A stretch of 64,000 bases of DNA. Origin: Hymenobacter rigui. Lineage in GTDB: Bacteria > Bacteroidota > Bacteroidia > Cytophagales > Hymenobacteraceae. Below, piece after piece: positions 1 to 19,230 of the stretch (positions are counted from its first letter, which is position 1; each line of letters begins with the position of its first letter). A model generated the notes under the pieces. That model did not search any database. It saw nothing but the letters and a program-made list of their open reading frames with translations, and was not told where the DNA came from. Both the position numbers and the translations under genes were made by a program. The stretch lies in contig NZ_RWIT01000008.1 in assembly GCF_003944715.1 (NCBI RefSeq), positions 1-64,000 on the forward strand, read 5' to 3'.

Positions 1-71
1 GCCTGCCGGGCTCCGGGCTCAGTCAGCGCCTGCGCCACGCGCTGGCGCAAATCCATCGAATACGCTTGCAT
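1..71 (-). CDS. IS630-family transposase, N-terminus only (runs off window)
   Basis: Reading leftward from an ATG at 71-69 gives MQAYSMDLRQRVAQALTEPG and then continues open to the window edge. The pattern M-x-A-Y-S-x-D-L-R-x-R-V is the usual start of IS630/Tc1-type transposases, which carry an N-terminal HTH and a DDE/DDD catalytic domain; only about 23 codons are visible here. Whether the element is complete cannot be judged. It would place a mobile element directly left of the MBL gene. The call rests on a short match, so confidence is moderate. Confidence 0.55.
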   Translation of the reverse strand, partial: MQAYSMDLRQRVAQALTEPGARQ

Positions 72-215
72 ATACCTGCTTACGTACGCTAGGCGACGGC
101 AGCTACACCGTTCATGAATCCGCTATAGCCCGAAGAGTCAACTAATTTCTGATTTACATATAATTTAAGTAATATAAATAGTGGGTAGGCAGTTGCCCCG
201 GCTCTCTTAGAGCAG

Positions 216-1586
216 GTGGTTTTGGACGGCAGCCCACGCGCTGCTGCTTTGTCCACCTATACTGTTATTCATCCCATGCCTGATCATCTTTACGTTGGAA
301 CCAATGAAGCCCGGTTTTATGCTGCTGATGAAGCCACCGGTGCTCGCCTGAGTCGCATAATTAATCGCCTATTGATGGGCTCTTATTTGCGACTGCTGCA
401 CCCGGATGCGGTGGACGGCTATTATCATGTACGCTCGATGGGTAAATCGGGGTGGATGAAAGTAGAGGATACCACCGATCGGATGGGTTTGAAAATGTAC
501 TTTCTGGATGTGGGGCAAGGCGATGGGAGCCTACTGGAAGTGGGGCGCTACCGCTTCTTGATTGATGCCGGACCAGATGCCCACCTGAAATCCTATCTGG
601 TCAAGTGGCAATACAAGCATCTGCTCAACGCCGGCCATTCCGTGCATTTGGACGGCCTGTTCGTCAGTCATTTTGATGAAGATCACTACAATGGTTTTAC
701 GGACCTGCTAGCCGACTCCCGCTTCACGTTCGGTACCGTCTACCATAACGGGATTGGGAAATGTGCGAAGCGCAACAATGCCTACCAGCCGCCTTACAAC
801 TCGGGGTTGGGTGAAACCTACCAGGCCGGTGATGGGGTGACGTACCTCAAGACTAACTTTGACACTCTGGATGATCTGCTGGCGCTGCGCGCTGCTGGCG
901 GGCTGCAGGCGATGTTCGTGCGCTTCATTACCGCGCTGGAAAAGGCGCATCAAGAGAGGCGGCTGGAGGCCGTGAAGCGGCTACGGTTCGACAATACTGA
1001 GCTATTGAGTGAGCAGATCGATGGCCAGCCTTTCCGGCTTCGTGTACTCGGGCCGGTCTGCACGGAAAACCACGGGCGATGGGAGCACCCATGGCTGGAA
1101 GACGAATCCCACACGGTGAACGGCCACAGCGTAGTGCTCCGGGTGGAGTTCGGAGACTGCTCCCTGCTGCTCGGGGGCGATCTCAATACCCAGGCGGAGC
1201 GGCACCTAATGGGACATTTCAGCAATGAGAATCCCTTTCAGGTGGATGTAGCCAAAAGCTGCCATCACGGTTCCTCTGAGTTTACGGAAGACTTTATGGC
1301 CCTGATGAACCCTTTGGCCACCGTGATCTCCTCGGGCGATAACGAGTCCTATGCCCACCCGCGGGCGGACGCTATTGGCTGCGCGGGTAAATACAGCCGC
1401 AGCAAGCGCCCGCTGGTGTTTTCCACGGAACTGGCGCGTTCGACCAATCTGGAATCCCAGAAGCTACTTTATGGTATGATCAATTTGCGGTGCGATGGTC
1501 AGCGCCTGTACATCGCGCAGATGAAGGAAGCTCGGGCCAATGCGGATATCTGGGACTCCTATCAGGTGAAGCCGGAGCCGGTCTAG
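216..1586 (+). CDS. ComEC/Rec2-like metallo-beta-lactamase fold hydrolase
   Basis: A 456-residue protein with no obvious signal peptide. Residues 92-120 (FLDVGQGDGSLLE, then LIDAGP) and the metal-binding motif SHFDEDH at 151-157 (H152, D154, D156, H157) are those of the ComEC-type MBL hydrolase domain. A later CHHGSSEF supplies another metal-ligand histidine pair. Family members hydrolyse phosphoesters or nucleic acids; the substrate here is unknown. The first 85 residues, ending in GKSGWMKVED, look like an SH3-type module. The reading frame opens with GTG at 216; an ATG at 276 is an equally plausible start. No transmembrane channel segments accompany it, so it is not a full ComEC. It lies just outside the palindrome that precedes the recombinase, and could be a separate effector nuclease. 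Confidence 0.75.
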   Translation: MVLDGSPRAAALSTYTVIHPMPDHLYVGTNEARFYAADEATGARLSRIINRLLMGSYLRLLHPDAVDGYYHVRSMGKSGWMKVEDTTDRMGLKMYFLDVGQGDGSLLEVGRYRFLIDAGPDAHLKSYLVKWQYKHLLNAGHSVHLDGLFVSHFDEDHYNGFTDLLADSRFTFGTVYHNGIGKCAKRNNAYQPPYNSGLGETYQAGDGVTYLKTNFDTLDDLLALRAAGGLQAMFVRFITALEKAHQERRLEAVKRLRFDNTELLSEQIDGQPFRLRVLGPVCTENHGRWEHPWLEDESHTVNGHSVVLRVEFGDCSLLLGGDLNTQAERHLMGHFSNENPFQVDVAKSCHHGSSEFTEDFMALMNPLATVISSGDNESYAHPRADAIGCAGKYSRSKRPLVFSTELARSTNLESQKLLYGMINLRCDGQRLYIAQMKEARANADIWDSYQVKPEPV

Positions 1587-1644
1587 GAATTAAGCTCCGA
1601 GCCGCTGCCAGAAAAAGACGACGTCAGTCCATCCATGCGACGGC

Positions 1645-1685
1645 CAACTTAGTACCGATAATACTTACTTATCGGTACTAAGTTG
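1645..1685. repeat. Perfect inverted repeat, candidate recombinase site A
   Basis: Two perfect 17-bp arms (CAACTTAGTACCGATAA at 1645-1661 and its complement at 1669-1685) flank a 7-bp spacer, TACTTAC. It lies 55 bp before the tyrosine recombinase start. No T-run follows, which argues against a simple terminator of the MBL gene. The inner core CCGATAA-N7-TTATCGG recurs exactly at 17076-17096. Geometry and neighbour fit a tyrosine recombinase crossover site; that function is inferred. Confidence 0.6.
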
Positions 1686-1739
1686 AAAAGTGTTATTTTC
1701 GGGGTGAAAACTCGTCGGCACTCCTTATTTATATAGCGC

Positions 1740-2720
1740 ATGGAAAAGTCAGCTCAACTCGCGGTGGTCGTGCCCACCCGGAATCACGCCTTGGTGGAGC
1801 TGCCGCCCTCGGTGGCCAAGTACGTCGAGGCAGGCTTACACGGCGCGGAGAATACCAAGCGCGGGTACGCGGCCGACTTACGTAGCTTCCAGGATTTTTG
1901 CGAGCACCACAACTTGGTGCATTTGCCGGCGGATGTGACGACGGTTGCAGCGTACGTTTCGCAGTTAGCTGATCGCGGCTTGAAGTTGGCGACCATTCGC
2001 AGGCATGTCGCAGCTATAAGCAAACTTCATCAACTCGCGGGCCAGCCTTCCCCTACCAATCATGAGGCACTGAGCGTGGTTCTGGATGGCGTTGCACGGG
2101 TGGTTGGTAAGCGTCAACGACAAGCGCCAGCTTTTACGGTGGCAGAGTTGAAGCAAGCAATCCGGGCGATGGATATAACAACACCTACTGGGCTCCGAGA
2201 TCGTGCTCTATTATTACTTGGTTTTGCTGGAGCGTTTCGCCGGTCGGAGCTTGTAGCACTAAACGTTGAGGATATAGAGTTGACACGGCAAGCATTGGTG
2301 ATTCATTTGCGACGTAGCAAAACGAACCAATATGGCTATGAGGAAGATAAGGCCGTATTCTACGCTCCTAGTGCTGATTATTGTCCAGTAAGAGCTGTTC
2401 AGGAATGGATGGAATGCTTGGATCGCACTAGTGGGCCATTGTTTACTAGAATGAGCCGGGGTAATACGCAACGTCCAGCTCAACCTGGAAAAGCTCGATT
2501 AAGTGATCAAAGTGTCAATGATCTTGTGCAGCTTCATTTAGGACCAGCTTATACAGCTCACTCCTTGCGAGCTTCCTTCGTGACAGTGGCAGTTGAAGCA
2601 GGTCAATCCAACAAGGCTATTAAGAATCAAACCAAGCAAAAGACAGATGCAATGATTGAGCGTTATGCACGACTAGATGATGTGAAGCGCTTCAATGCAG
2701 CACAAAATCTAGGGTTGTAA
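1740..2720 (+). CDS. Tyrosine recombinase / integrase (XerC/D-like)
   Basis: A 326-residue phage-integrase-family protein. The N-terminal SAM-like core-binding domain (about 25-110) is followed by the catalytic domain. Catalytic residues visible are R167 in FRRSEL, K194 in RRSKTNQ, H274 and R277 in AHSLRASF, and the nucleophile Y309 in IERYAR. The family cuts and rejoins DNA through a 3'-phosphotyrosine intermediate at sites made of two inverted arms and a 6-8 bp spacer. Such a site lies 55 bp upstream. The protein is of normal length and looks intact. Base composition changes inside the gene: the first 400 bp are GC-rich like the backbone, and from about 2150 onward it becomes AT-richer like the following operon. 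It probably mobilises the island to its right. Confidence 0.9.
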   Translation: MEKSAQLAVVVPTRNHALVELPPSVAKYVEAGLHGAENTKRGYAADLRSFQDFCEHHNLVHLPADVTTVAAYVSQLADRGLKLATIRRHVAAISKLHQLAGQPSPTNHEALSVVLDGVARVVGKRQRQAPAFTVAELKQAIRAMDITTPTGLRDRALLLLGFAGAFRRSELVALNVEDIELTRQALVIHLRRSKTNQYGYEEDKAVFYAPSADYCPVRAVQEWMECLDRTSGPLFTRMSRGNTQRPAQPGKARLSDQSVNDLVQLHLGPAYTAHSLRASFVTVAVEAGQSNKAIKNQTKQKTDAMIERYARLDDVKRFNAAQNLGL

Positions 2721-2722
2721 TT

Positions 2723-3772
2723 TTAACTCAATACCTTTTCTAGATTATAATCTATGTTATTTTTGAAGCTGATATTTTTATCAAGCTGAGGCAATTGTAT
2801 TTTGTTTGTATCTTTAACAGCGTCCATTTGGGCACTATTTATTAAAGAATTTATATCAAAATGATACATGGCCCCCCTTGCGCCTTTGAAAACGCAGTTA
2901 TAGGCACTGAGCGTTTGTCCAAATTTTAGAGCTTTTTTTATTATATCGATGCTAAATTGATGCTTCGCAGACATATTCATCTTATGTAGATAAAATAAAA
3001 GCCCAGCAGAGCACCAGTCTCCGGCACCAGCTGTGTCTACAACATGATCAATACTTAGTGCTTCGCTTAATATCCAATCGCTATTTTCTCGTGTTCTGAA
3101 TAATAAACCACCTTCTCCTAAAGTCTTGATTTCTATACAAGATACAGGTTGAGGGTATAAAGATTCAAACTCTGGTATTCTATCTTGTGAGAATTTAATA
3201 ATATCTGCTAATTCAACAGATTCTTTGAATAACTTAATATCTTTAGCGCTAGAGGGTTCGAAGAATACCAATGCACCCTTCGACTTATAGAACTTTGCTA
3301 GATTGATTGATGCTCTGTTATAACGATCAAAATAGAATACATCACATGTTTCTCTCTTAGTAACCACACTTTCAACTGCGTTGGCTAGAAACGGTTTATA
3401 TGAAGGCAAATAACCGCCGTTGTAAGGATTTTTGAATTCAAACTTATGCTTTGGGCGGCCCGACTTATCTGTTAAAATCCGGTGTATTATAATCGGGGTA
3501 CTGCCATCTTTAGTAGTAGAAATAAGTTCATCATTGACTTTAAATATTCTTATGTCTTCAAGTAGTATATCAGTCGCGGTGCTTGTGGAAAGCCGAGCTA
3601 TTGGGAAAGTATTCCACCCTAAAAAAGAAAGGATGGTTAGAACATTACCACAAGATCCACCTGCGTAGTAAGCAGGTGGTGTAATAGGGTTGCCATTTAG
3701 CACTATATCAAGTGCGACAAGCCCTGTGCCAATGCATACAGGCTGCTTAATGTTTTCCAATTGTTTGCTCAT
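2723..3772 (-). CDS. PfkB-family sugar/nucleoside kinase
   Basis: A 349-residue ribokinase-like protein. PfkB signature 1 is seen at about 37-53 (YYAGGSCGNVLTILSFLGW), and signature 2 at 246-256 (DTAGAGDWCSA), with D252 the expected catalytic base. The family phosphorylates sugars, nucleosides or similar alcohols with ATP. The specific substrate cannot be read from sequence. It is the last gene of a five-gene leftward operon, and its ATG lies inside the end of the preceding gene (26-bp overlap), so translation is probably coupled. It converges with the recombinase, with only 2 bp between stop codons. AT-rich composition and codon use match the operon, not the GC-rich backbone. In a conflict system it could make or inactivate a phosphorylated sugar or nucleoside (inference). 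Confidence 0.85.
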   Translation of the reverse strand: MSKQLENIKQPVCIGTGLVALDIVLNGNPITPPAYYAGGSCGNVLTILSFLGWNTFPIARLSTSTATDILLEDIRIFKVNDELISTTKDGSTPIIIHRILTDKSGRPKHKFEFKNPYNGGYLPSYKPFLANAVESVVTKRETCDVFYFDRYNRASINLAKFYKSKGALVFFEPSSAKDIKLFKESVELADIIKFSQDRIPEFESLYPQPVSCIEIKTLGEGGLLFRTRENSDWILSEALSIDHVVDTAGAGDWCSAGLLFYLHKMNMSAKHQFSIDIIKKALKFGQTLSAYNCVFKGARGAMYHFDINSLINSAQMDAVKDTNKIQLPQLDKNISFKNNIDYNLEKVLS

Positions 3773-4919
3773 CCTCTTCGTAAGGCTCTCCAGTGAGCCA
3801 AATTACAAAAAGTTCAGATGACAGACTGGTCTGCTCAAAGTTAAATCCCTTCTCTAGACTATAGCCTTGAGAATCAACAGTTGTAAGCCCGACCCTTACG
3901 TCACCTTCTACATTGTTGATTTGATATGCAGCTAGCAAAGTTCCAATTGAAAGTAGCTTACTTGAAAAAGCGGAAATTGCAACTCTGCAACCATTTAACT
4001 CTTTAAGCGACTTGCTGTAATTTTTTATGGTATTCACTAATATTTTATAGACCTCAAAAGGGTTGCGCTCTGGAGCGTACATAATATTCTGGGGTTCAAT
4101 TCTCAATTCATCAAACAGAAGCTTGTTGTAATCGATAAGGAGTTTGTCTGGTCTGTGGGATACTTTCGAAGGATAGGGAAATATTGGGCAGATCTCATCT
4201 GGCACTAAACCTTCGCTTGCAATTTGCATATGGCTCTTCTTGCCTTCCCCTAGCAATGGCAGCCATATTAACGGCTCAGTCCGTTCAGCAGGTGAGGGTT
4301 TGATACCACCCATAAAGCCCATCAAGAAACTAACATCTTTATCTAAACCCTCATCGTTGATATTGGAATCAATAGATGGATTTTCTGCTACGCAAACAAT
4401 TAGATTAGGGGCATTTGACTCAACTGGCCTATTGTCGATAATTGACAAAACCTTGCCAATTAACGAAAAATATATGCTGCGGGGAAGTGCGCTTATATCT
4501 ATTATTATGTCTGTATATCCCGCTAGCTCATGAAAGTCCTTTATTAGATATGCCGCATCTCTGTCGCCTACTCGTCGTCTTCTATTTCCTTCTTCTTTCC
4601 AAATATTGATATTTTTTTCGCGAATATTAGATTCAGGAACAAGCCTTCTTAGCTCTTCGATGTTCGAATCTACGTATTGTTTGTGCTTAGAATCTTCTAA
4701 ATCTGAGCCATCGTTGAAACAAATAAGCAAGCAATCCAAGTTTATATCTGCAGGCAACTCTTTGATTTTATTTAATACATAATTCATGCGTACGTCAAAT
4801 CCTTTTCCCAGAATCAAAAGGAGCTTGCGGTGTTCAGTTCCGCCGAAGTGTAAAGAAAGAGTATGAGTTGCTTTATCTCCGGAGAGAAGTAAATACGGGC
4901 TCCAGCGAAGATTGCTCAT
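3747..4919 (-). CDS. Uncharacterised protein of the PRTase/ORC-like operon
   Basis: About 390 residues and not assigned to a family by me. The ATG at 4919 overlaps the TAA of the ATPase gene as TAATG, typical of coupled translation; an ATG 12 bp earlier (4931) is also in frame. Visible features are LLLILGKGFDVRMNYVL near residue 35, DCLLICFNDGSD near 60, a strongly hydrophobic strand ending in DISALPRSIYF at about 140, and a conserved-looking region LIWLPLLGEGK near 220. The alternating hydrophobic strands ending in D or DxS suggest a Rossmann-like alpha/beta fold. No signal peptide, membrane segment or nuclease motif is obvious. Its place between ATPase and kinase suggests an enzyme or sensor of the same system. 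Confidence 0.75.
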   Translation of the reverse strand: MSNLRWSPYLLLSGDKATHTLSLHFGGTEHRKLLLILGKGFDVRMNYVLNKIKELPADINLDCLLICFNDGSDLEDSKHKQYVDSNIEELRRLVPESNIREKNINIWKEEGNRRRRVGDRDAAYLIKDFHELAGYTDIIIDISALPRSIYFSLIGKVLSIIDNRPVESNAPNLIVCVAENPSIDSNINDEGLDKDVSFLMGFMGGIKPSPAERTEPLIWLPLLGEGKKSHMQIASEGLVPDEICPIFPYPSKVSHRPDKLLIDYNKLLFDELRIEPQNIMYAPERNPFEVYKILVNTIKNYSKSLKELNGCRVAISAFSSKLLSIGTLLAAYQINNVEGDVRVGLTTVDSQGYSLEKGFNFEQTSLSSELFVIWLTGEPYEEDEQTIGKH

Positions 4920-6829
4920 TATTTTGTCCACTTAAGAAGTTCGTCAGATTTGATATGGCGCCACCCCCCATATCCTAATGGAAGCTTGAAGTACATGCAG
5001 AGCCATCTATTGAGGTAGAACACGTCCACTGCTTCAGCACCTCTCTTACCTTGTTTTATTGTTCTTTTTTCTAATAGGTTGTAAGATAAACACGTTGAAA
5101 GTACGTTTATCAGTCCTGAGAAGCGTTCGTTTTCTAACCAGTGCTCATCGGGTATTAACCTAGTGTTATTTGGCGCTTTGATAGCAAAGCCTGTTACACC
5201 TGGCGCATACGGAACAGTAGTCCGGTTCGTCTCTTTGAAGGCAAATTCCTGGACTTTAGTTAAAAATTTTTTTACAGGTTCTGCATAAGGAATGAGGATA
5301 TTTAGCTCCTTCCATCTTTGATTTACGACCCTGCGTATGATTTTTTCCTGCTCCGATGTTGTTAGTGTTATTGATTTCGCAGCAATTTTATTAGAGAGCA
5401 TTGACTTGGAAAGCATAGATTCATAAAGGTCAGCGCTTAGTTGCAAGAACTGATCGATGTTAAACGACGAGAGTTTTACTAATCGTTCGAACCCATAATA
5501 ATAAGGTATATTGTTTTCATGTGAAATTAGGTACTCGCTAGCATTTTTGATGTCAGAAGCTATCAAAGATTTTAGCTCGTTAACTGTAAAAGGTACATCA
5601 AGTGATAACTGTCTGTTATCAACATGGCGTCGCACGACAATCTCGGTGGACCTAGCCATCCATGCTCTCTCAAGTTTCGTTCCTTCAAATTCTTCTAAAT
5701 AGGTTATCCAATTATCAAATTTATGCGTCTGATTAAATGAGGCTATTTTATGAATCGTTCCAATGCTTTTAGCGTAAGCTGCTTCGTAATTCTCATCGTA
5801 AGCTTCTTCATTATTATATTCTTCTAAATGTTCTTCAAAAGAATTTATGTCCTCGGATGAAGCTTCTGCTCTTCTAGAAGCTACGTTTGAAACAATATTT
5901 CTAAATTTGCTTTCCTTGTTCTGCCATATTTCTTCTAGGTTTATCTCTTCATAATCCCTTTTAAGATATGAGCGCAAGTTCTCTTTTGGGCTAAGTGCTT
6001 CTAGTCGTTCGGAAATCCAAATAGTATGCTCTCTTCTTTGTTCAATTATATAAGTAATCAATACCTTTCTCTGTTTTACTGACAGTTTGTGAGTGTCATC
6101 AAACATGAACAAAATTCTTTCACTTATTAGGTTCCCTGAGTAAAAAATATTGTCTGAGCTGAATGCATTAAAAGCAAATAACTCTTCATGTCCTTCAGGC
6201 TGAATTTTTTCAATTGGTAAAAAACTATCCAATGCTGCATAAACTTTAGCCTCTATATCCTCAGCCCATTTGTATAGTATTTGGCCATTACATGGAAACT
6301 GTAAGCCTCTAAAGTATCCATGCTCGTTTTTGTAATTGATAGTTATTTTTTCGAGGTCATTAGGAAATGATTTTTGTTGAAGGGTAATAATGCCTCGTAA
6401 AGTAGCAGTGACTATGCGGGCATTTAATAATGCGAAAAATAGCCTCTTTTTTTGAACGTCATTAATAGGAAGATCTTCAAGAATTTCATAGTTCCTTGTG
6501 CATTGCAAGCTTATGCCTAACAACTTGATTGAATCATTGTCGAGAACGCCTAGCTTTCTTAGGTACTCTTTTAGGTCCTTTAGTTTAGCTTGAGATCTAT
6601 TGTTGAATAGAGCTACTAAAGTATTGGGCTCAAAAATTCTCAATAGCGATGTTTTACCTGCACCAGGTGAGCTACGGATGAAAAGTACATTGTTCCATAA
6701 CTTCTCTTCTCTCTGCTTTTCTATCAGAGTATCAAGAATACTTGGGCTATAGATGCGTAAGAAGCTCACATCAGAATCTATCTTTTCTGATGTTCTTACC
6801 TTGAAAGGATTTCTAAGCCTTGTCGTCAT
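4919..6829 (-). CDS. ORC/CDC6-like AAA ATPase
   Basis: A 636-residue protein starting MTTRLRNPFKVRTSEKIDSD, with a P-loop SSPGAGKTS at 53-61, a Walker B strand ILFMFDDTHKL at 239-249 and a sensor-1-like TIWISERLEAL near 269. The opening NPF-x-x-R-x-S-E-x-I-x-S-D-x-x-FL, followed by a P-loop near 55, matches what I remember of the bacterial ORC-CDC6 family AAA ATPases that accompany PRTase-CE proteins; this is recognition from memory, not a search. The remaining about 350 residues are helical and uncharacterised. Such ATPases usually act as nucleotide-dependent switches or invader sensors. The gene starts 17 bp inside the end of the PRTase gene and its stop overlaps the next start. Cytoplasmic. 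Confidence 0.75.
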   Translation of the reverse strand: MTTRLRNPFKVRTSEKIDSDVSFLRIYSPSILDTLIEKQREEKLWNNVLFIRSSPGAGKTSLLRIFEPNTLVALFNNRSQAKLKDLKEYLRKLGVLDNDSIKLLGISLQCTRNYEILEDLPINDVQKKRLFFALLNARIVTATLRGIITLQQKSFPNDLEKITINYKNEHGYFRGLQFPCNGQILYKWAEDIEAKVYAALDSFLPIEKIQPEGHEELFAFNAFSSDNIFYSGNLISERILFMFDDTHKLSVKQRKVLITYIIEQRREHTIWISERLEALSPKENLRSYLKRDYEEINLEEIWQNKESKFRNIVSNVASRRAEASSEDINSFEEHLEEYNNEEAYDENYEAAYAKSIGTIHKIASFNQTHKFDNWITYLEEFEGTKLERAWMARSTEIVVRRHVDNRQLSLDVPFTVNELKSLIASDIKNASEYLISHENNIPYYYGFERLVKLSSFNIDQFLQLSADLYESMLSKSMLSNKIAAKSITLTTSEQEKIIRRVVNQRWKELNILIPYAEPVKKFLTKVQEFAFKETNRTTVPYAPGVTGFAIKAPNNTRLIPDEHWLENERFSGLINVLSTCLSYNLLEKRTIKQGKRGAEAVDVFYLNRWLCMYFKLPLGYGGWRHIKSDELLKWTK

Positions 6830-7931
6830 CTTTGTGTCTGGTTACTCGCGGAAACAAGCCAACGAAGTCTTTATCGTTGGGAAGCCATAGGATAGGTAAA
6901 CTATTGTTAGGGGTATTGTGACTCAACACAAGTGGAAGCCCACATTCATCAAATCCCAGATATGGTTTAGAATGCTTTCCTTTCTTAAAGTGACCGTCAA
7001 CTATAGAGGCATCAAAATACTTAGGGTTCTTTAACAATTCTACGAATTGGTGTTCCTTGCTTAAGTCTATTGAGTCAGTATCCTCTATGATTTGAACTGC
7101 TTTTACAGAATGCTCAAAGGAAAGAGAATGTTTTGCTTTCCATTCACTGATCGAGTCATTGAGATAATCCAATGCACGCCTTCTTGCTATATAAAAAACA
7201 AGATGGAGGTCCAATTCATCGGTATTAATTAGCTCATTAAGGTTTCTCCCTGTTTGTGGTACTAATGCATCGATTGAGAATAGGCGCTTAAGAAATTTAA
7301 GAACCTTGCCCTTTTCCTCTGCAGCACGAAAGTAGCTTAAGCCGCTGGCAGTAAAATCATCTACTAGAAAAACTGATGTAAATTTAGGCTCGTCCTTGTA
7401 CTTTTCACTAAGTTCTTTGATCATTTCTTCCTGTTTGTCAGCAGAAATATGATAAGATGAAAATATTTGCTCGTTATCTAAGTGGTTAAATCTTCTTAAT
7501 TGATCAATTTTAGCGCCGTCGCTAAGGCCAAGAAATAGAGCCTTTCTTTTTACTTCTGCATACGTAGCGCTTTTCTTAATTTTTGAAATTAAATAGCTTG
7601 GTACACATAAAGACCGAGCAGCTTTCTCAGTGAGAACCGGATCAATAATTTCTGGAAAACATATATTTATTAAATGGGATACTTGTGCATGTGAAATAAA
7701 AATCAAGTTTTCCTTGATGAAGTTGTATGCAACATTTCTTTCAGCGGGTGAGTCAAATTGATTTAACCAGTTTACCAAACTCGCAGTAAATCGCATCCCA
7801 GACGAATACTGTTGGTACTCGTCATATTTTAAGCTCGCTAGCGCTTGAATTAGAGGCCTCTCCGTATTTATTTGCTCAGGCTCCCAATTCATTATTTTCA
7901 CCAAAAGCCTTTCGGCCAATATATTATTCAT
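6813..7931 (-). CDS. Phosphoribosyltransferase-like protein (PRTase-CE type)
   Basis: A 372-residue protein. The start chosen is the ATG at 7931, which leaves 2 bp after the upstream stop; a longer reading would overlap that gene by 60 bp. At residues 187-200 is SVFLVDDFTASGLS, the PRPP-binding motif of type I phosphoribosyltransferases (two acidic residues followed by a T/S-x-S/T-G turn). A helical region of about 180 residues precedes it, unlike metabolic PRTases. I associate this layout with the PRTase-CE family, a partner of ORC/CDC6-like ATPases in predicted conflict systems (from memory). It could transfer or remove a phosphoribosyl group on a nucleotide, RNA or protein, or bind a PRPP-like signal; the sequence does not decide. 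Coupled to the ATPase by overlap. Confidence 0.72.
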   Translation of the reverse strand: MNNILAERLLVKIMNWEPEQINTERPLIQALASLKYDEYQQYSSGMRFTASLVNWLNQFDSPAERNVAYNFIKENLIFISHAQVSHLINICFPEIIDPVLTEKAARSLCVPSYLISKIKKSATYAEVKRKALFLGLSDGAKIDQLRRFNHLDNEQIFSSYHISADKQEEMIKELSEKYKDEPKFTSVFLVDDFTASGLSYFRAAEEKGKVLKFLKRLFSIDALVPQTGRNLNELINTDELDLHLVFYIARRRALDYLNDSISEWKAKHSLSFEHSVKAVQIIEDTDSIDLSKEHQFVELLKNPKYFDASIVDGHFKKGKHSKPYLGFDECGLPLVLSHNTPNNSLPILWLPNDKDFVGLFPRVTRHKDDDKA

Positions 7932-7933
7932 GG

Positions 7934-9835
7934 TTACTGCAAATTGAATTTCATTTCTTTTGGTGCAATATGCAAAGCTTGTAGATAGTACAGGCAAGCA
8001 TCAGAATCTCTAACGGAAGGGGGTGCGAGATTCCAACACGTTTCCGGGTCACTAGTTACATCATTGACACTTAGCGAAAAAGGCGTAGATAGTAATTCAA
8101 AGTCATTTCCAGGCCAACTACCTTTATCCCCAACTGTTAGGCAATTTTCTGATAAACCTTTTGCTCGCAATAATTCTTGAACAAATGGCACTATGTTCAA
8201 TTTTGATACATCAGGTCTTTTTATTATATCAATCGATCGAGAAGACTCGGTAACAAGAAAATTAGCATTTCTAACTTTGAAAGCAATGTTATTCACAGCA
8301 TCTTTGATCATGGGCCAATTAGCTTCAGACTTTGCTTCTATTGTAAGCTGCATATTCCGCAGGCTTTGTTCTACTTTATCAGCTATATAGCTGCCATGTA
8401 TTTTAGATGAGATTTCTGAAAGTACATCCGTTCCATTATTATTAATAATTGGCAGTTCTTCGTCTAAAAGCGAAGTAATGTATGCTCCATTATAATAACC
8501 AATAATGACCGATTCCCATATGCTTTTATCGGGGATCAATTTTCTCAAATCGTTTTTTACGGACTTGCCGCGACCAGTGATTATCCCAACAATAAAACCT
8601 TTATTAATTATTCTTTCAATCTGAGTGATAATCTGTATGTCTGGCCCTATTAACCTGTTTTTATGTGAGCACAAAGTTTTGTCATAATCAAGTAAAACTG
8701 CTCCATAGGAGGTTTTGTGCAGCCTCACGTAGAACTGACTTTGTTTGTCATCCCAATACTTTTTACTTTTAACATCAAGTGTGCTTAAAATCTGAGGATA
8801 TATTTTTCTCTGTATAAATAAATTTGTCAAACTATCCGAATTTTCTCTTTGCTTTAGTAGCGAAGCATAGCTCATATTGTAAAGCTTACTTCCAAAATCT
8901 GGCACTCCCGGTTTTCCAGGGTCAATGCCTACCAATTTTCCTACAGCTTGTACAAAATAGAAGCTCTTGATGAGCAAATCTATTGTTCCTAATGGGCCAA
9001 TATGTTCTGTTTCTATTTTATACACAGAAACAGTATCAGGTAGAAGGCCAATTGTTTTTTCAGCTATAAGTCTATTTTGCGGAGTAATTAGAGCAATTAC
9101 ACAAGTGCTTTCTTCATGTTTTGCCAACCAGTGATGTCTTCCATGGCCGAAATTTCTGTAATCTGTGATCAATACGTTCCCTAACGCAGCCTCAGTAAAT
9201 TTTGATTCAATGTCAATAGCGACTGGCTTAGCCCAATCGCTACTCAAGACCTTGAATGTGCTATATTTATTTAATATGTTGAGTGCGCTGATTTGTTGTT
9301 CAAATTCTGCGATTTTAAAATCAATATGTTTAGTCGAGTATCCATAAGTATTGGCTAGTAATAAAAAGAATGCAATTAGAGAGTTTGTTGCAAGAAATCC
9401 GTCCTTTCCAGCCGGAAGTGGAAATTCAAAAATACTGGTTATGGAGTTTTTCTCAGATCTGTTAGCCAATGGTGTTTTAAGTGATGTGCAAATACCAACC
9501 ATATAGTTAGGTTCGTTTTTGACTAATACATCAAAGGCAATTAAGATATCTTTGTTTTTTCCGCTTGCGCTCACTATGAGCGCATTAGTATTTCTTATTA
9601 TGTTACCTGAATTGTAGAGCTCCAGTGGAGTACAGGCTTTCGCAAAATGGCCTACTTCTTGGTGAAGAATTTCAGCAAAATAACATGCGCTCAGGGAACC
9701 ACCTGAGCCGACTGCTAGAAGCGATCCACTCATCATGGGCTTGAATTCATGTATCAGATTTGATAGATCAAGAGAGTTGATATGTTCAATTGTGCTAGGT
9801 AGCTTGTCAAGCTCGCTACGGAATGGTTTGCCCAT
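7934..9835 (-). CDS. Bifunctional SIS sugar-isomerase domain + HAD-IIB phosphatase
   Basis: A 633-residue two-domain protein and first gene of the leftward operon. Residues 35-310 form a double-SIS module: AVGSGGSLSACYFAE at 41-55, LIVSASGKNKD at 86-96, and FTEAALGNVLITDYRNFGHG at about 213-232. SIS domains isomerise or bind phosphosugars. Residues 378-600 form a Cof-like HAD phosphatase: nucleophile and acid D383 and D385 (LLDYDKTL), motif II T420 (IITGRGKS), motif III lysine in VSKLNIV (K545), and motif IV VGDKGSWPGND with D570 and D578. All HAD catalytic residues are present, so a phosphosugar or nucleotide phosphatase is likely. Fusing isomerase to phosphatase suggests it makes a dephosphorylated sugar or nucleoside from a phosphosugar. 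It lies 2 bp before the PRTase gene. Confidence 0.83.
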   Translation of the reverse strand: MGKPFRSELDKLPSTIEHINSLDLSNLIHEFKPMMSGSLLAVGSGGSLSACYFAEILHQEVGHFAKACTPLELYNSGNIIRNTNALIVSASGKNKDILIAFDVLVKNEPNYMVGICTSLKTPLANRSEKNSITSIFEFPLPAGKDGFLATNSLIAFFLLLANTYGYSTKHIDFKIAEFEQQISALNILNKYSTFKVLSSDWAKPVAIDIESKFTEAALGNVLITDYRNFGHGRHHWLAKHEESTCVIALITPQNRLIAEKTIGLLPDTVSVYKIETEHIGPLGTIDLLIKSFYFVQAVGKLVGIDPGKPGVPDFGSKLYNMSYASLLKQRENSDSLTNLFIQRKIYPQILSTLDVKSKKYWDDKQSQFYVRLHKTSYGAVLLDYDKTLCSHKNRLIGPDIQIITQIERIINKGFIVGIITGRGKSVKNDLRKLIPDKSIWESVIIGYYNGAYITSLLDEELPIINNNGTDVLSEISSKIHGSYIADKVEQSLRNMQLTIEAKSEANWPMIKDAVNNIAFKVRNANFLVTESSRSIDIIKRPDVSKLNIVPFVQELLRAKGLSENCLTVGDKGSWPGNDFELLSTPFSLSVNDVTSDPETCWNLAPPSVRDSDACLYYLQALHIAPKEMKFNLQ

Positions 9836-10564
9836 ACTTTAGTGTTTTTAGCTGAGGATTAATGGAGAATCCAACCGTGGTTTAGGGAAACAATCTACTG
9901 GGTTTTAAGGTCAGTACTTGTTCTGCCAGCCATGTTAGGCAAATATAGGAGGAGCTTTAAAGGGCTTCTAATTCTATTAGTAAATTAACTTTAATGCATT
10001 GATGGAAAGACGATTACATTGTTTGTGCCTTTCGGTATAATTGTTCGAGCTCTTCTATATGGCCTAGATTTTAACCCCGCCTTACTTGTCCCCTAACCTG
10101 CCTGGGCACAAGCCTTGGCGCAAGCTTCAACTGAGAGGCTAACCCAAGCCTACAAGACGTTGATGAAAGAATCGTAAGAGCAGTAAAGTACGATCCCCAG
10201 AAGCATTACACTACTTGTAGGAGTCCAAATCATGGTCTTAGAAGTGAAAGGAACTTTCTGCAAATGTTGAGGAGTGTTCCATCTTACCTCAGTCAGTAAG
10301 CATAGTGAGCTACGCACAGATCTATTGTTAAAAAATACATCATCAGTTATTTAGCTATGCATATAGGTATTCCTGTCACGTCTGATAAGAGCCAATGGCA
10401 ATGACTGCTAAGTAAACATTTTATCAGTCCTTACTATCTAAGCTTGATAACTTGTCTTACGTTGGAAGTTATCACACCTTAATATTAGGTTAGATAAGAT
10501 TGTCGTGGGATGTGGCGCAGAGAACCCTTACATTGTGACGCTTCTTTATTTACTTTAATTCTCC
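9836..10564. other. Intergenic region without a recognisable gene
   Basis: Divergent spacer between the leftward SIS-HAD operon and the rightward lipoprotein gene. AT-rich and full of stops in all frames. It holds the -7 box described separately and a 9-bp inverted repeat (TGATAACTT at 10445-10453, complement at 10466-10474) about 90 bp before the lipoprotein start, which could be an operator. No tRNA or convincing ORF is seen. Confidence 0.5.
9940..9947 (-). promoter_or_regulatory. Candidate -7 promoter element of the five-gene operon
   Basis: On the minus strand this reads TATATTTG, an exact match to the Bacteroidota primary-sigma -7 box TAnnTTTG, about 105 bp before the SIS-HAD start. I see no clear TTG-type -33 box at the expected distance, so the call is tentative. 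Confidence 0.3.
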
Positions 10565-11047
10565 GTGCGTCCACTCACACTTTCTCCACTGCTGGCTGCT
10601 ACACGGCGGCAGGTAGCAGTCTGTCTGCCTTTATTGTTACTCAGCTTGAGCAGTTGTACTCAAACCGATTCATATTCGGGAGCTCCATATATGGAACTCC
10701 AAGATAGACCTAAGTCTGCGGCTGAGTTACGAGCCGAACTACTCGCCTTGGAGCAGAGCGCACCCAGCGATTACTTGGAAGTAAGAGGAGCTCATCGGCG
10801 TAATCTAATCAATCAGCTGGTTTTGGAGGGTGACATAAGTAACCGCGCAACGCTCGCTCGTTTCAAAGACCCAGTGGTCATGGTGGAATGGTATTCCAAA
10901 ACCAACACCCTGCTAGCTAATAAATCTTATCCTGTATATGAGTTGTTACCGGCCCAAGGTACGGTACACTTCAAATTAAAAACGCAAGCGCCCAGCGAAG
11001 TCAAAAGCGTTGGAATGACCATTGCCGATGCCACCGCCGTGGACTGA
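10565..11047 (+). CDS. Small predicted lipoprotein
   Basis: A 160-residue protein. An N-terminal basic stretch is followed by the hydrophobic run VCLPLLLLSLSSC; the lipobox L-S-S-C places the lipidated cysteine near residue 31. The mature part is soluble and contains PKSAAELRAELLALEQ, a short helix resembling the opening of small periplasmic domains in Bacteroidota, followed by beta-rich sequence. The function is unknown. It is isolated, transcribed away from the SIS-HAD operon and converging on the HNH gene, with 18 bp between the stops. Nothing links it clearly to the defence genes; it may be cargo. Confidence 0.7.
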   Translation: MRPLTLSPLLAATRRQVAVCLPLLLLSLSSCTQTDSYSGAPYMELQDRPKSAAELRAELLALEQSAPSDYLEVRGAHRRNLINQLVLEGDISNRATLARFKDPVVMVEWYSKTNTLLANKSYPVYELLPAQGTVHFKLKTQAPSEVKSVGMTIADATAVD

Positions 11048-11065
11048 TCCACGCTGACTGCTGGA

Positions 11066-12229
11066 TTAAAACCGCTGAGCAAATCGAGCCGTCGCGACTT
11101 CTTCAATAAAGCGAACTGCGCGCCTAGCCAATTGCGCTTCAAAGTCTATCATCTCCAGTCCATTAAAGCGTAGCAGTGCATCCTCCTGCACCGCGCTGTG
11201 TAGCGTAGCTAGCTTCCGGTAATTAGCGTAAGCTTTCGTCAACCACGGCTCGGCGGCTGCTAGTTTAGGTGCATCGGGTATACGGTCGCGCTTGGTATGC
11301 TGATTGTATTGTCGATCAACGGGCAATAAATTCCACAGCTCGTTGATGGGGTAAATGGTAAGCGGCAGTAAGTGATCGAGATCGTACTGTTGGGGGCTGG
11401 AAAGGACCTTTTGCGTCCAAGGGCACGTGAACTGGACATTTTCGTGTAGCAAAATGTCAATTTGGTTGCGTTCCCAGGACAACGGACGACGGTTATCGGG
11501 ACGAGCCGTAAGTATCGTGTAAACTTCACCCCGGGTAACATTGCGTCCTGGATCTTGCGTTACCCCTTCGGTGAACAAACACCATTCGTGGATGCACAGG
11601 GCCTCGACGTAAAGTGAAAGCCGGTGAAACGCGGCCCACAATTCGCCTGGTACGACCAGGCAGAGTTCATTCAACTGGGTACCGGGCAGAGCGCGAACGG
11701 AGCTCGGAAGTTGATCACAGCGGATAGGCTGAGCGAAGATGGACCAGTGCCCCGGCCCGGCAAACTTGATGGGCATGAGCAAGGCTTTGCCCACGGCGGC
11801 AACTGCTGTATCGTAGGCGGATTGAAGCGATTGGCTGTAGGATTTTCTCCGACGCGGAGTACGCATCTCGGCCTGCAAAAAGAATCCATCGCCTGCTTGA
11901 ACACTTAACTGCACCGTGCGTTTCCACTCAAGCTGCAATGCGGCAAGGGCTGGACGGAACGCCAGATCATTGCGCAAACTGCCGGAAACAACAGCGCGAG
12001 CTCCTTGGTAAATTGGAGCGAACTCATCCGCGAAAGGCCAATAATAGGCCACCCACAATTCTGCTAACCGACGTAATGGGATAGCTACAGCCAAGTCACC
12101 ACGCGCCATATCAGGGTACATTAGCACCACATCGTTGATAGAGCGAAGGAGCGCTATTTTGTAGCTGGTCGTCTTGCTATCGTGCTTGAGGATAGCGGCG
12201 ATAACTTGCTCTCCGTGATACGCTGTCAT
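11066..12229 (-). CDS. HNH endonuclease-domain protein
   Basis: A 387-residue protein with a helical N-terminal two-thirds of unknown fold and a C-terminal HNH nuclease module at about 265-320. It reads FTCPWTQKVL, then YDLDHLLPLTIYPINELWNLLP (D285-H286, N296/N300) and QYNQHTKR (H311). The pattern DxDH...N...H is that of HNH enzymes that nick or cut DNA with one metal ion. It is the third gene of a leftward operon, 21 bp after the MazG-like gene. In that context it is probably a restriction-type effector. The N-terminal part may read the target or a partner protein; it has a positively charged patch (RTPRRRKSYSQS) near residue 123. Confidence 0.75.
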   Translation of the reverse strand: MTAYHGEQVIAAILKHDSKTTSYKIALLRSINDVVLMYPDMARGDLAVAIPLRRLAELWVAYYWPFADEFAPIYQGARAVVSGSLRNDLAFRPALAALQLEWKRTVQLSVQAGDGFFLQAEMRTPRRRKSYSQSLQSAYDTAVAAVGKALLMPIKFAGPGHWSIFAQPIRCDQLPSSVRALPGTQLNELCLVVPGELWAAFHRLSLYVEALCIHEWCLFTEGVTQDPGRNVTRGEVYTILTARPDNRRPLSWERNQIDILLHENVQFTCPWTQKVLSSPQQYDLDHLLPLTIYPINELWNLLPVDRQYNQHTKRDRIPDAPKLAAAEPWLTKAYANYRKLATLHSAVQEDALLRFNGLEMIDFEAQLARRAVRFIEEVATARFAQRF

Positions 12230-12250
12230 GCTAGCACTGCGCTTGCTAGA

Positions 12251-12592
12251 TTACTCTGCGTCAAACTCATCATGCTTTTTAGCCGTGCCCCGGGCCTTGG
12301 CAACCGGGTATTTTTCGCCGTTGCGCTTCATTTTCTCTTGCATAAGCTTAATCACGTCCCAGTTGTATTTATCCGCTAGTTGAAAAGCATAAAGCAGCAC
12401 ATCCGCCAGCTCCTCCCGGACCTTGGCCTGATCGGCTTCTTCCGGCTTTTTCCACAGGAACTGCTCATTTAATTCGGCGGCCTCGATGCTCAACGCGAGC
12501 GCCAGATCTTTCGGGTTGTGAAATTGGGCCCAATCGCGTTCATCCCGAAACCGGCGCAGTTGCTGAAGCAGCTCCCGAATTGAATTGTCCAT
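12251..12592 (-). CDS. MazG-like nucleotide pyrophosphohydrolase
   Basis: A 113-residue protein starting at the ATG at 12592, 10 bp after the helicase stop; longer readings run back into the helicase gene. It has the all-alpha NTP-PPase pattern: ALSIEAAELNEQFLWKK (the E-x-x-E half-site near residues 31-36) and REELADVLLYAFQLADKY (E-x-x-D half-site near 58-65), which together bind Mg. Length fits single-domain MazG-like enzymes such as RS21-C6/dCTPase. These enzymes convert (d)NTPs to NMP and pyrophosphate. In a nuclease operon it could deplete or sanitise nucleotides during phage infection, or remove a nucleotide signal (inference). Confidence 0.85.
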   Translation of the reverse strand: MDNSIRELLQQLRRFRDERDWAQFHNPKDLALALSIEAAELNEQFLWKKPEEADQAKVREELADVLLYAFQLADKYNWDVIKLMQEKMKRNGEKYPVAKARGTAKKHDEFDAE

Positions 12593-12602
12593 TAGTTGAT
12601 AC

Positions 12603-14465: not shown

Positions 14466-14685
14466 TTAGGCTAAAATGTGAGGATGTTTAGCTGATTCTG
14501 GTGTTGGGATCTGAGAATATCTTGACAAGATAGATGAGTATCGTCTGAGCACCGACCTGAGCTAACCTGTTTTCTACGTGCAATAGATTAGTGTATGCCC
14601 ACCAATTCAATTACACTAGCTCTGTGCTCGAACAAGAAAAAGCTTAACCGATAAAGTTCTGCCAGTAACTTGTTCAAAAAAATGC

Positions 14686-15651
14686 ATGCTGCCAGACTTT
14701 GTAATGTCCGCGAATACGTGGGTTGAGATAACCAGTTCAAACCATGGTCACGGTGGTCCGGGGTGGGAATTTGGAACTTGTCTGTGGAGTCCTCGAGTGG
14801 ATGAAAGCGGCGCAAAGCGATATGAGGTAATGCTCCTTCCCGAGGTAGGTGATTTGGTATTGCACTTCTATAAGCACAACTGGGACGGGGGCGCTGCGCA
14901 TACACAACTGTGCGGGTTTTCCCGAGTTAAGTCCAGCTGCCGCGTCATCGATACCCCACCCCCTAGCCCCGGTAGATGGGTTGCTCCGGAATATTACCGC
15001 ATTGATTTATCAGATTACCAAGCATTTGAAAAGCGCTTAGTTCCCGAAAATCTAAACAAGCACCCAGAGTATCTGGCACGCATCCGTAGCGAGATGACAC
15101 CCATCCGCCCTGGCCGTTATCCTTTTGCTTCTTATGGTACTGGTATTAGAATTACTCAGGGACAATATCTAACTCGCTGCACAGCGTTGCTATACGACGT
15201 ATTTCTGGATGCCCTAGGTCTTGAAGTCAGGGCTACAACAGCCAGCGATATCGAGCGCAAGGGGCAAGAGTTTCAAGAAGGAAAAAGACGGTTGCGAGAA
15301 GCCTATTTCTTCACTCGAAACCCTCGGCTTGCGTCGGAGGCCAAGCGGCTGCGTAACTATACCTGCGAAGTGTGCAGCTTTGATTTTCGGCACCATTACG
15401 GGGAATTAGGTAACGGCTATGCCGAGTGCCATCACAAGAACCCCTTGTCGGAACGGCCTGAAGAGTTGTGGACTGATGGGGTAATGACATCAGTGGAAGA
15501 TGTGGCCGTGCTGTGTGCCAATTGTCACCGGATGATCCATAGCAAGCGCCCCGCATTGAGCGTTGAACAGCTTAAACAAATTTGGCAGGCTGCCGCCCTG
15601 GAACACTTAACAGGAGTTAATGGGGAATTTAAAGAATCGAACCTTAACTAA
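14686..15651 (+). CDS. EVE-like domain fused to HNH endonuclease (modified-base restriction)
   Basis: A 321-residue protein. The N-terminal 110 residues (NTWVEITSSNHGHGGPGWEFG, then EVGDLVLHFYKHNWDG) look like an EVE/PUA-type module. Such modules read 5-methylcytosine or other modified bases. The C-terminal domain is a zinc-bearing McrA-type HNH: C227 and C230, the CHHKNPLSE histidines H249 and H250, and CANCH with C277, C280 and H281. EVE-HNH fusions are known or predicted type IV-like restriction enzymes that cut modified phage DNA. The starts at 14686 or 14704 (residue 7) are both possible. It is a single gene, divergent from the nuclease-helicase operon, which supports a cluster of independent defence modules. 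Confidence 0.75.
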   Translation: MLPDFVMSANTWVEITSSNHGHGGPGWEFGTCLWSPRVDESGAKRYEVMLLPEVGDLVLHFYKHNWDGGAAHTQLCGFSRVKSSCRVIDTPPPSPGRWVAPEYYRIDLSDYQAFEKRLVPENLNKHPEYLARIRSEMTPIRPGRYPFASYGTGIRITQGQYLTRCTALLYDVFLDALGLEVRATTASDIERKGQEFQEGKRRLREAYFFTRNPRLASEAKRLRNYTCEVCSFDFRHHYGELGNGYAECHHKNPLSERPEELWTDGVMTSVEDVAVLCANCHRMIHSKRPALSVEQLKQIWQAAALEHLTGVNGEFKESNLN

Positions 15652-15842
15652 ATATCACCTTATTGCTGTCCATTATTTCTTATCTCCCGATGCGCTTAAT
15701 TCCGGTCCTAGTGTCAGTCTATTGGGACTACCAGATAAACCTTATAGTTTTTGCTTTGTGCTTGTAAGCGTATTCCTCGAGCAAGAACGCTTGTATCACC
15801 TATGATAAGAAAACCCTCAGTTATTTTATATAGGTCACAATC

Positions 15843-15875
15843 CTATGTAAAGAAAAATCAAGTTTCTTTACATAG
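15843..15875. promoter_or_regulatory. Perfect inverted repeat before fic, candidate operator
   Basis: Two perfect 13-bp arms (CTATGTAAAGAAA at 15843-15855, complement at 15863-15875) with a 7-bp spacer AATCAAG end 37 bp before the Fic start. The Fic protein has a C-terminal winged helix, so autoregulation at this site is plausible. The rest of 15652-15912 shows no gene. Confidence 0.45.
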
Positions 15876-15912
15876 CTAGCTTACATATCTTCCTGGCTAG
15901 TTCTCACCCAAC

Positions 15913-16977: not shown

Positions 16978-17069
16978 GCCCTCGGTTCATAGTCGAGCTG
17001 ACTAGGTGAGATCAGGCCAGGGTAAAACTTGAAAAGCCTGACACTGCCGTAGGAAGCATTGAAATTGAG

Positions 17070-17102: not shown

Positions 17103-17235
17103 TTAGGGCGGATACAGCAGCCTGACAGGTTCCAAGTGCGGGACAACTGCTCGCCGAGTAAGTAAAGAAGGATTTACCCAGACCGGCTCGTTCCGTGGTT
17201 TATCACCGTCGGGCGCTGGAAGCAAGTCGTACTAC

Positions 17236-19220: not shown

Positions 19221-19230
19221 GCGAGCAACC

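Follow-up and report, generated by a model that had tools for sequence, protein, structure and literature searches.

Five open reading frames, all pointing leftward, lie at positions 2723–9835 of the Hymenobacter rigui contig NZ_RWIT01000008.1, within a stretch of 64,000 nucleotides (the window). In order of transcription, all on the minus strand, they encode SIS-HAD, which joins a SIS part to a HAD-IIB phosphatase (7934–9835; 633 aa; PF08282 and family profiles); PRTase-CE, a phosphoribosyltransferase-fold protein (6813–7931; ~372 aa from its conserved ATG; PF24390); an ORC-CDC6-like AAA+ ATPase (4919–6829; 636 aa; PF24389); CARF6, a stand-alone tandem CARF (Rossmann) sensor according to PADLOC and its predicted fold (3747–4919; ~390 aa); and a PfkB/ribokinase-family sugar or nucleoside kinase (2723–3772; 349 aa; PF00294 and family profile). 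The junctions, read from the sequence, agree with the preliminary description, made from the DNA letters alone, of five coupled genes with overlaps or 2-bp gaps. A gap of 2 bp separates SIS-HAD from PRTase when the latter is taken to start at its conserved ATG, at 7931 (the automatic call is a TTG at 7997); the PRTase and ORC genes overlap, as do CARF6 and PfkB; and ORC and CARF6 share a TAATG junction, on account of which we place the CARF6 start at 4919 (automatic call, a GTG at 4931). Also as described earlier, the operon is AT-rich in GC-rich surroundings: its genes have 36.7–39.6% G+C, versus 56.1% for the window. Convergent with the operon and ending 2 bp from it is a XerD-like tyrosine recombinase (1740–2720, plus strand; PF00589, E = 7.8e-11) that may be the mobility gene of an island. 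The left island border is out of view, since the window begins at base 1 of the contig; the stretch upstream of the operon is 729 bases. A hidden RNA component was considered and set aside, a scan of window positions 1–20000 having returned no Rfam match.

The PRTase matches PF24390 with 84.6 bits against a curated cut-off of 27 (E = 1.3e-23), and the ORC protein matches PF24389 with 87.1 bits against a cut-off of 27 (E = 1.5e-24). In the 65-row PRTase alignment (here, as in all our family alignments, near-copies and incomplete rows are excluded, and residues are numbered by the first row) D191-D192…S196-G197 of the PRPP motif, VDDFTASG, and an HN.PN motif are invariant. The AlphaFold2 model (pLDDT 93.9) finds its best solved counterparts among uracil, orotate and hypoxanthine PRTases (UPRT/OPRT/HPRT), with moderate Z-scores of up to 9.3; Foldseek by itself gives E = 0.009 at best, and the family profile finds 6igs in the PDB, weakly (E = 0.47). 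This likeness is moderate, and the protein may be a binding protein rather than an enzyme. PADLOC identifies it as PRTase_III-A (E = 5e-15), a label that we at one point considered as CRISPR type III-A and rejected: it denotes a retron type. In the ORC protein, Walker A residues G52, G54 and K55 and Walker B D240 are invariant, and T56 and D241 nearly so (61 rows). Profile matches to the PDB cover little beyond the AAA+ P-loop (best E = 0.0086), and the predicted ORC identity rests on Pfam.

The fourth gene, 'unknown' in the preliminary description, is a tandem CARF sensor, judging by its PADLOC profile and modeled fold. It matches PADLOC CARF6 (PDLC01910) over residues 9–385 with E = 5.8e-104, and its AlphaFold2 model (pLDDT 93.5) aligns best with the CRISPR effector Can1 (6sce; Z 15.1, rmsd 3.2 over 234 residues), followed by Csm6, Can2, Cam1 and Card1. 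A new fold, once a candidate, is rejected on the strength of the profile match and the fold of the model. The likeness emerged only in a second look, with VIA-align; the 50 matches listed by plain Foldseek included no CARF and were low-TM-score alignments to KaiC, transporter, stress-protein and other domains. A 16-row CARF6 profile found nothing credible among PDB sequences (best 2qpq, E = 0.36), and no Pfam family recurs consistently across the 63 members, in whose alignment G37, D39, R41, D138, S140 and K318 are invariant. No match to models of Csm1, Cmr2 or the SMODS cyclase (TIGR02578, TIGR02577, PF18144) was found in the H. rigui genome.

The two remaining proteins resemble sugar enzymes. 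The HAD part of SIS-HAD matches PF08282 with 23.7 bits against a cut-off of 20.9, a match shared by 57 of 60 family members; the Pfam SIS domain is found in 19 of the 60, and not in the window's own protein. Searched singly, the protein gives a weak match (E = 0.075); as family profiles, the SIS part finds 2aml, 8eol, 3hba and, weakly, 3eua, and the HAD part 4qjb and 1ymq. The SIS part is thus predicted to be of the phosphosugar isomerase/deglycase type; G43-G46, E210, E215 and H231 are invariant in 18 rows. The HAD pattern DxD/K/GD..ND is invariant or nearly so, D383, D385, S425, K545, D570 and D578 being unchanged in all 60 rows, at what we take to be the HAD motif positions. PfkB scores 25.7 bits with PF00294, just below the cut-off of 25.8, and its family profile finds fructokinase 5ey7 (9.7e-18), PH1459, ketohexokinase and many other PfkB structures; D235, G238, G240 and D241 of DTAGAGD (DxxGxGD) are invariant in 57 rows. 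Together, SIS-HAD and PfkB might be a repair pair like FrlB/FrlD (deglycase plus PfkB kinase), an idea with which the weak 3eua match is in keeping. Catalytic motifs had been described as intact from the one sequence, and this extends to the families: across alignments of 57–65 rows they are invariant or nearly so.

The operon is real and conserved. Among the genome loci of the best 80 of 323 PRTase relatives, 62 have all five genes together, an arrangement far beyond chance; of the 18 that do not, 15 run into the end of a contig or break off within an insert. PRTase, ORC and CARF6 occur together in 76 of the 80. Evolutionary distances, compared over 50 loci by Mantel correlation uncorrected for shared ancestry, correlate at r = 0.87–0.94 within PRTase-ORC-CARF6 and at 0.86 between SIS-HAD and PfkB, versus 0.58–0.73 between these groups; hence the operon consists of two modules, the trio and the sugar-enzyme pair (module 2). 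Two loci, L004 and L013, carry two divergent trios beside one SIS-HAD/PfkB/NADAR set, the paired ORC copies being 27–28% identical and one PRTase of L013 split. In a distant branch (L127) the trio occurs with neither SIS-HAD nor PfkB, and module 2 therefore cannot serve PRTase-CE as an antidote everywhere. Within the five-gene branch, the only places without SIS-HAD are those where a contig ends and the surroundings of a lone PRTase (L019).

NADAR proteins—ribosyl N-glycosidases and antitoxins (PMC11543638, PMC11125620)—join 19 of 99 loci, too few to be a universal part of the operon, an idea that we therefore rejected. Six loci lack PfkB, as judged at the locus only (at one, L084, just 143 bases remain after CARF6). 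All six have NADAR within 57 bases of SIS-HAD and form one clade of a tree built by a quick method, so this state reflects one event: NADAR stands in for the kinase in that clade. The H. rigui genome has one NADAR match (G000:C37:144703), on a contig other than the window's; its operon has none.

Related loci occur in 14 or more phyla, including two of archaea. The PRTase is found in 19 plasmid records, SIS-HAD in 18 and ORC in 17, and 17 records are common to all three. Against 50,697 phage records neither the PRTase nor SIS-HAD gave a match, and we set phage cargo aside on that ground; the PRTase is present on three possibly viral IMG/VR contigs, next to a type I methylase (L101), a Mu-type transposase (L102) and a D5-like primase (L103). 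Neighboring genes are rich in defence functions: 151 PADLOC families in 143 proteins versus 8 in 139 control proteins, counting families rather than proteins, with several models per family, among the best 25 matches listed. The neighbors, from many phyla, comprise at most one ORF of at least 134 aa per flank, no more than 3.5 kb away and trimmed to 500 aa, with 16 loci and the window excluded; the controls come from 12 hand-placed stretches in six Bacteroidota genomes. CARF6 occurs in one of 291 genomes of the order—H. rigui itself—and, for E of 1e-20 or lower, SIS-HAD in one of 395 of the phylum, and on these counts a known housekeeping pathway is rejected. The preliminary description would have been undone by five genes that do not travel together, or by a housekeeping pathway with no link to mobile elements. 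Neither is the case, since the families co-occur and the plasmid records and neighbors point to a mobile, defence-rich setting. Its pairing of PRTase-CE with ORC stands too, both families exceeding their Pfam cut-offs in the window and occurring together in related loci; what it missed were the CARF sensor, the division into two modules, the exchange of kinase for NADAR and the kinship of the PRTase with retron III-A. The operon is a mobile system of many bacterial groups and some archaea, with a probable role in defence by way of nucleotide-type chemistry under sensor control.

The single families are already catalogued, and known systems resemble the operon in part. Burroughs and Aravind (2020) reportedly described PRTase-CE/ORC-CDC6-like predicted conflict systems; both families exceed their cut-offs here, and the trio with CARF6 recurs in L127, but the operon adds a separately evolving SIS-HAD and PfkB, with NADAR in a minority of loci. 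With type III-A retrons, whose typical effector is a PRTase (PMC12548924), it shares an output enzyme of the same family—in the window's phylum, L136 and L138 have PRTase_III-A beside RT_III-A—but it has ORC and CARF in place of RT-DNA. A scan of ten window proteins, the five of the operon and five neighbors, shows no reverse transcriptase family, and the retron-linked PRTases examined lack the pattern HNTPNN. Type III CRISPR CARF effectors (Can1, Csm6, Can2, Card1, Chp) share the CARF fold, Can1 most closely, and Chp likewise brings a CARF together with a HAD phosphatase (PMC12715507); unlike them, CARF6 stands alone with no fused effector, and the genome lacks a Csm1 or Cmr2 match. The DprA-PRTase system, reported to protect against T7 and lambda (PMC9122126), likewise couples a PRTase to a DNA-binding-type partner, but with two genes rather than five, and no DprA match was found among the ten proteins. 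DarT-NADAR places NADAR beside a ribosyl-transferring enzyme, as 19 of the 99 loci do with a putative one, but the operon's enzyme is a PRTase, not an ADP-ribosyltransferase, and the genome's only NADAR lies elsewhere. The Ter stress system has PRTases and HAD enzymes, proposed to make nucleoside-like signals (PMC7824862); our operon has CARF and ORC instead, and the ten proteins include no Ter family match. For the five-gene set we found no description among the matches listed in literature on PRTase, CARF, NADAR, retron and anti-phage themes, a comparison outside of which lie Makarova 2020 (CARF), Burroughs and Aravind 2020 and one NADAR paper. PRTase-CE or CARF6 by name brought up nothing relevant, and passages of PMC9503650 and PMC13092281 do not describe the set.

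The families, conserved motifs, co-inheritance, two-module evolution, NADAR substitution and mobile, defence-rich setting are supported directly, and the CARF and PRTase folds by models. The best explanation, which we favor tentatively and at somewhat short of even odds, is a horizontally moving, two-module defence operon with a PRTase output gated by ORC and CARF and a second module that processes the product. The tandem CARF protein would act as a ligand-gated switch and the ORC/CDC6-like ATPase as another switch or as a sensor, perhaps of DNA-bound type; together they would hold, and then release, the PRTase-fold output enzyme. Once triggered, this might use PRPP or a similar donor for (phospho)ribosyl transfer, to give a product that is toxic or depleting. 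SIS-HAD and PfkB, helped or replaced by the NADAR N-glycosidase, would process the ribosyl-phosphate product, most likely clearing and recycling it, which would let the uninfected cell withstand leakage. We infer the trigger, the gating, the reaction that the PRTase catalyzes, the way in which module 2 runs and an abortive outcome. The earlier suggestion that the ATPase controls a molecule of the ribose-phosphate or nucleotide type is compatible with the findings, and is favored by the recurrence of NADAR, a ribosyl N-glycosidase family.

Module 2 might run in the other direction, instead. SIS-HAD and PfkB could prepare an unusual sugar phosphate to which the PRTase couples a base; CARF6 would read the resulting nucleotide-like signal or antimetabolite and NADAR erase it. 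The role of effector would then fall to the antimetabolite or to an unlinked target. Nucleotides are the ligands of CARF proteins, and the genome lacks a match to the Csm1, Cmr2 and SMODS cyclase models. The near-strict presence of SIS-HAD in the five-gene branch would be compatible, too, with an obligatory role in synthesis, which speaks against clearance. A Streptomyces cluster (L009) sets a distant PRTase and CARF6-like pair, with the same HNTPN motif, among a PRPP synthetase, a phosphatase and a phosphoglucose isomerase, and the Ter proposal is of the same kind. But the L127 trio, and PRTase-CE beside retron reverse transcriptases, do without module 2, and an N-glycosidase in place of a kinase suits clearance better than synthesis; we regard such a messenger as rather unlikely. 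Its bolder form, to which we give about one chance in five, is that the ligand of CARF6 is a novel nucleotide that the operon itself derives from PRPP, and not cyclic oligoadenylate: SIS-HAD and PfkB would shape the unusual sugar phosphate, the PRTase join the base, CARF6 and ORC set the threshold and NADAR erase the signal.

Improbable, in our estimation, is that PRTase-CE, under the control of ORC and CARF6, does no more than deplete PRPP or nucleotides, with module 2 restoring or protecting sugar-phosphate pools, and no dedicated messenger or adduct. The conserved PRPP motif agrees with this, as does depletion of ATP and IMP by the CARF-HAD effector Chp in type III-A CRISPR (PMC12715507), but it leaves the recruitment of NADAR and the strict linkage of SIS-HAD to the PRTase branch unexplained. 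Less probable still is a niche metabolic or plasmid-maintenance pathway found in mobile DNA by chance: SIS, HAD and PfkB are sugar enzymes, and a distant SIS-HAD sits in a sugar ABC-transporter locus (L144), but the CARF sensor, ORC-type ATPase, retron relatives, defence-rich neighbors and scatter over many phyla all count against it.

If the gated two-module operon that we favor is real, PRTase effectors, here and in III-A retrons, would answer to two unrelated kinds of control: RT-DNA in the retrons and an ORC-CARF switch in the operon. CARF sensors would have a likely source of ligand outside CRISPR and CBASS, and NADAR and the SIS/PfkB sugar enzymes would be safety or signal-clearing parts of a bacterial and archaeal immune system. 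The NADAR-for-kinase swap makes the metabolite directly testable, as the expected substrate of both branches. And should CARF6 bind a PRPP-derived ligand, this would be a CARF signaling pathway with a non-polymerase messenger chemistry of its own.

Five genes fill positions 2723–9835 of the window (minus strand): those for SIS-HAD, PRTase (PRTase-CE, PF24390), ORC (an ORC-CDC6-like AAA+ protein, PF24389), CARF6 and a PfkB kinase. They are packed as the preliminary description read them from the sequence—SIS-HAD and PRTase 2 bp apart, PRTase overlapping ORC, CARF6 overlapping PfkB, and ORC and CARF6 meeting at TAATG—and they are AT-rich, as it also held (36.7–39.6% G+C versus 56.1% for the window). 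Conserved start points place the start of PRTase at 7931 and that of CARF6 at 4919.

The gene formerly called 'unknown' has proved recognizable: it matches the PADLOC CARF6 models (best, 5.8e-104). The best structural alignment of its AlphaFold2 model, built with 63 sequences (pLDDT 93.5), is to Can1, a type III CRISPR nuclease with tandem CARF domains (6sce; Z 15.1, 234 residues, rmsd 3.2), and Csm6, Can2, Cam1 and Card1 come next; plain Foldseek gave no CARF likeness among the 50 matches listed. PRTase and ORC score far above their Pfam cut-offs, the HAD part of SIS-HAD scores above its own, and the PfkB kinase falls 0.1 bit below. The PRTase model (AlphaFold2, pLDDT 93.9) aligns to uracil, orotate and hypoxanthine PRTases with Z up to 9.3; Foldseek alone reaches E 0.009 at best. 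The SIS part is seen through family members (Pfam SIS in 19 of 60) and through profiles, which match 2aml, 8eol and 3hba in the PDB and, weakly, the putative deglycase 3eua, and the kinase profile matches fructokinases, PH1459 and ketohexokinases. In the PDB, matches to the ORC profile are confined to P-loop stretches of AAA+ proteins, and so the name ORC rests on Pfam. Family alignments of 57 to 65 rows, with near-copies and incomplete rows left out, bear out the catalytic motifs first judged intact, which are invariant or nearly so in the enzymes; CARF6 has ten such columns.

Whether the five families travel together had been left to a survey, and they do. In the best 80 of 323 relatives found by a single scan of a genome collection with PRTase, all five occur at 62 loci, and PRTase, ORC and CARF6 together at 76. 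Fifteen of the remaining 18 loci end at a contig end or inside an insert between CARF6 and PfkB; in the other three (L090, L096 and L098) the sequence continues and PfkB is absent. The insert is carried by Bacteroidales relatives. At 12 loci, nearly all from Bacteroidales, there is an AbiEii toxin-family gene (one representative identified; L085, 7095–7901, and similar ORFs); wherever CARF6 and PfkB are both visible, it lies between them. In 72,556 plasmids, tblastn searches run independently found PRTase in 19 records, SIS-HAD in 18 and ORC in 17, with 17 common to all three. Of the PRTase records, 17 of which were fetched, two break the linkage: L019, where PRTase stands alone, and L009, with a distant PRTase from Streptomyces. 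The one extra SIS-HAD record (L144, 8257–9951) holds a distant homologue that lies among sugar ABC-transporter genes, a possible hint at a metabolic origin of the SIS-HAD/PfkB pair. On a Rhizobium plasmid (L018, 8992–15990) PRTase, CARF6 and SIS-HAD are fragmented, a locus in decay. A search of 395 genomes of the phylum for SIS-HAD (E up to 1e-20) gave the window's genome only; CARF6 occurs in one of 291 genomes of the order, with no match in the genus's 20 other genomes.

Distance matrices from the 50 loci with all five alignments correlate at 0.87–0.94 among PRTase, ORC and CARF6 and at 0.86 between SIS-HAD and PfkB, versus 0.58–0.73 between these sets, common ancestry being included in all values; for every gene pair, none of 999 permutations reached the observed correlation. 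The contrast points to an operon of two modules, the PRTase/ORC/CARF6 trio and the SIS-HAD/PfkB pair, that have been partly exchanged. Relative L093 displays this directly, since its SIS-HAD (44.5% identity) and PfkB (53.8%) are closer to those of the window than is its ORC (32.3%). Fifty-eight loci keep the window's gene order on one strand; elsewhere the pair precedes, follows or diverges from the trio. In L004 and L013, two divergent trios adjoin a single SIS-HAD/PfkB/NADAR set (in L004 the second CARF6 is truncated by the edge of the sequence fetched; in L013 the second PRTase is split). An ORC tree (97 rows, quick method) intermingles at least 14 phyla, of which two are archaeal, and its well-supported clades unite different phyla; single contigs from draft bins might be misassigned.

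NADAR, an N-glycosidase, is the commonest neighbour. Of the 99 loci with both PRTase and ORC, 19 have it: 13 also have PfkB, and six lack PfkB at the locus (L011, L084, L090, L096, L098 and L101; in L084 this status is limited by the mere 143 bases that remain past CARF6). In all six, NADAR lies within 57 bases of SIS-HAD. These six, from four named phyla, a plasmid and an IMG/VR contig, form one fully supported clade in the ORC tree, so the substitution happened once and transfer has spread it. Another ten loci, with neither PfkB nor NADAR, are cut at contig ends or stop inside the insert. Recruitment of an N-glycosidase suggests a role for a ribosyl N-linked compound in the system. Close to NADAR at seven loci is a small protein (e.g. 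L089, 9529–9921; L013, 9542–9889; L012, 8480–8869). The L012 and L013 annotations call it an HTH regulator, and a Pfam search with the protein of L089 found no match; perhaps it is a regulator of the SIS-HAD/PfkB module.

PF24390 occurs in 24 of the 395 genomes of the phylum. Among 16 flanks fetched, one (L127) has the trio without SIS-HAD and PfkB, and eight have a nearby ORF with an RT-type YxDD motif, two of which were confirmed as retron RT_III-A with PRTase_III-A; PRTase is described as the typical effector of type III-A retrons (PMC12548924). The five-gene branch, L127 and L009, each with a CARF6-like partner, share an HNTP(N/D) motif close to the C-terminus of PRTase; a simple pattern search of the eight RT-linked PRTases did not find it. 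Protection against T7 and lambda has been reported for a DprA–PRTase pair (PMC9122126).

The operon's surroundings are rich in mobility and defence genes. Pfam families of the neighbours include NADAR (11), phage integrase (4), transposases, relaxases and conjugation proteins, and the window has a tyrosine recombinase gene whose end is 2 bp away from the operon. At E up to 1e-10, 143 immediate-neighbour proteins (from loci other than the window, with 16 omitted as near-copies or lone genes) match 151 PADLOC families, versus 8 families for 139 control proteins from 12 stretches that we placed in six Bacteroidota genomes; Gabija, BREX, type I restriction, AbiE and Fic are among the neighbours' top families. 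Within ~7 kb of the operon lie a MazG-like protein that overlaps a Schlafen group 3 helicase bearing an additional N-terminal part (12251–14465; PADLOC matches PDC-S41, AbiO and Nhi), probably another defence pair of the same island, and two HNH proteins and a SoFic-type Fic protein (11066–12229, 14686–15651 and 15913–16977). On the recombinase's other side is a metallo-beta-lactamase-fold protein (216–1586) similar to ComEC, Avs1a, LmuA, RTasMBL and 6A-MBL. One window protein has a Por secretion tail domain, and this and the closest homologues suggest that the host is a Bacteroidota.

All five families are already catalogued, and others had earlier given PRTase-CE, ORC-CDC6-like and CARF6 their names; among the open-licence papers listed in searches, none was seen to describe the five-gene set. 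How might it work? We favour a gated PRTase: ORC and CARF6 would restrain it until a trigger arrives, whereupon it would transfer a (phospho)ribosyl group or drain the donor of that group, and SIS-HAD, with PfkB or NADAR, would process the product. Less likely, SIS-HAD with PfkB or NADAR would make the product. SIS-HAD is constantly present in the five-gene branch, and a CARF sensor is present though searches of the window's genome for Csm1, Cmr2 and SMODS gave no matches, both of which would suit synthesis. So would the Streptomyces plasmid cluster (L009, 1–15004), in which a distant PRTase-CE with HNTPND and a CARF6-like protein accompany PRPP synthetase, inositol monophosphatase, phosphoglucose isomerase, PhyH dioxygenases and PEP mutase; this gene set resembles a biosynthetic cluster of nucleoside or phosphonate type. 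The CARF-HAD effector Chp, described as depleting ATP and IMP (PMC12715507), shows that phosphatase chemistry can come under CARF control. Clearance of the product by the SIS-HAD/PfkB module is nevertheless the more likely role, because NADAR can replace the kinase, because two trios can share one such module, and because NADARs act as antitoxins in other systems.
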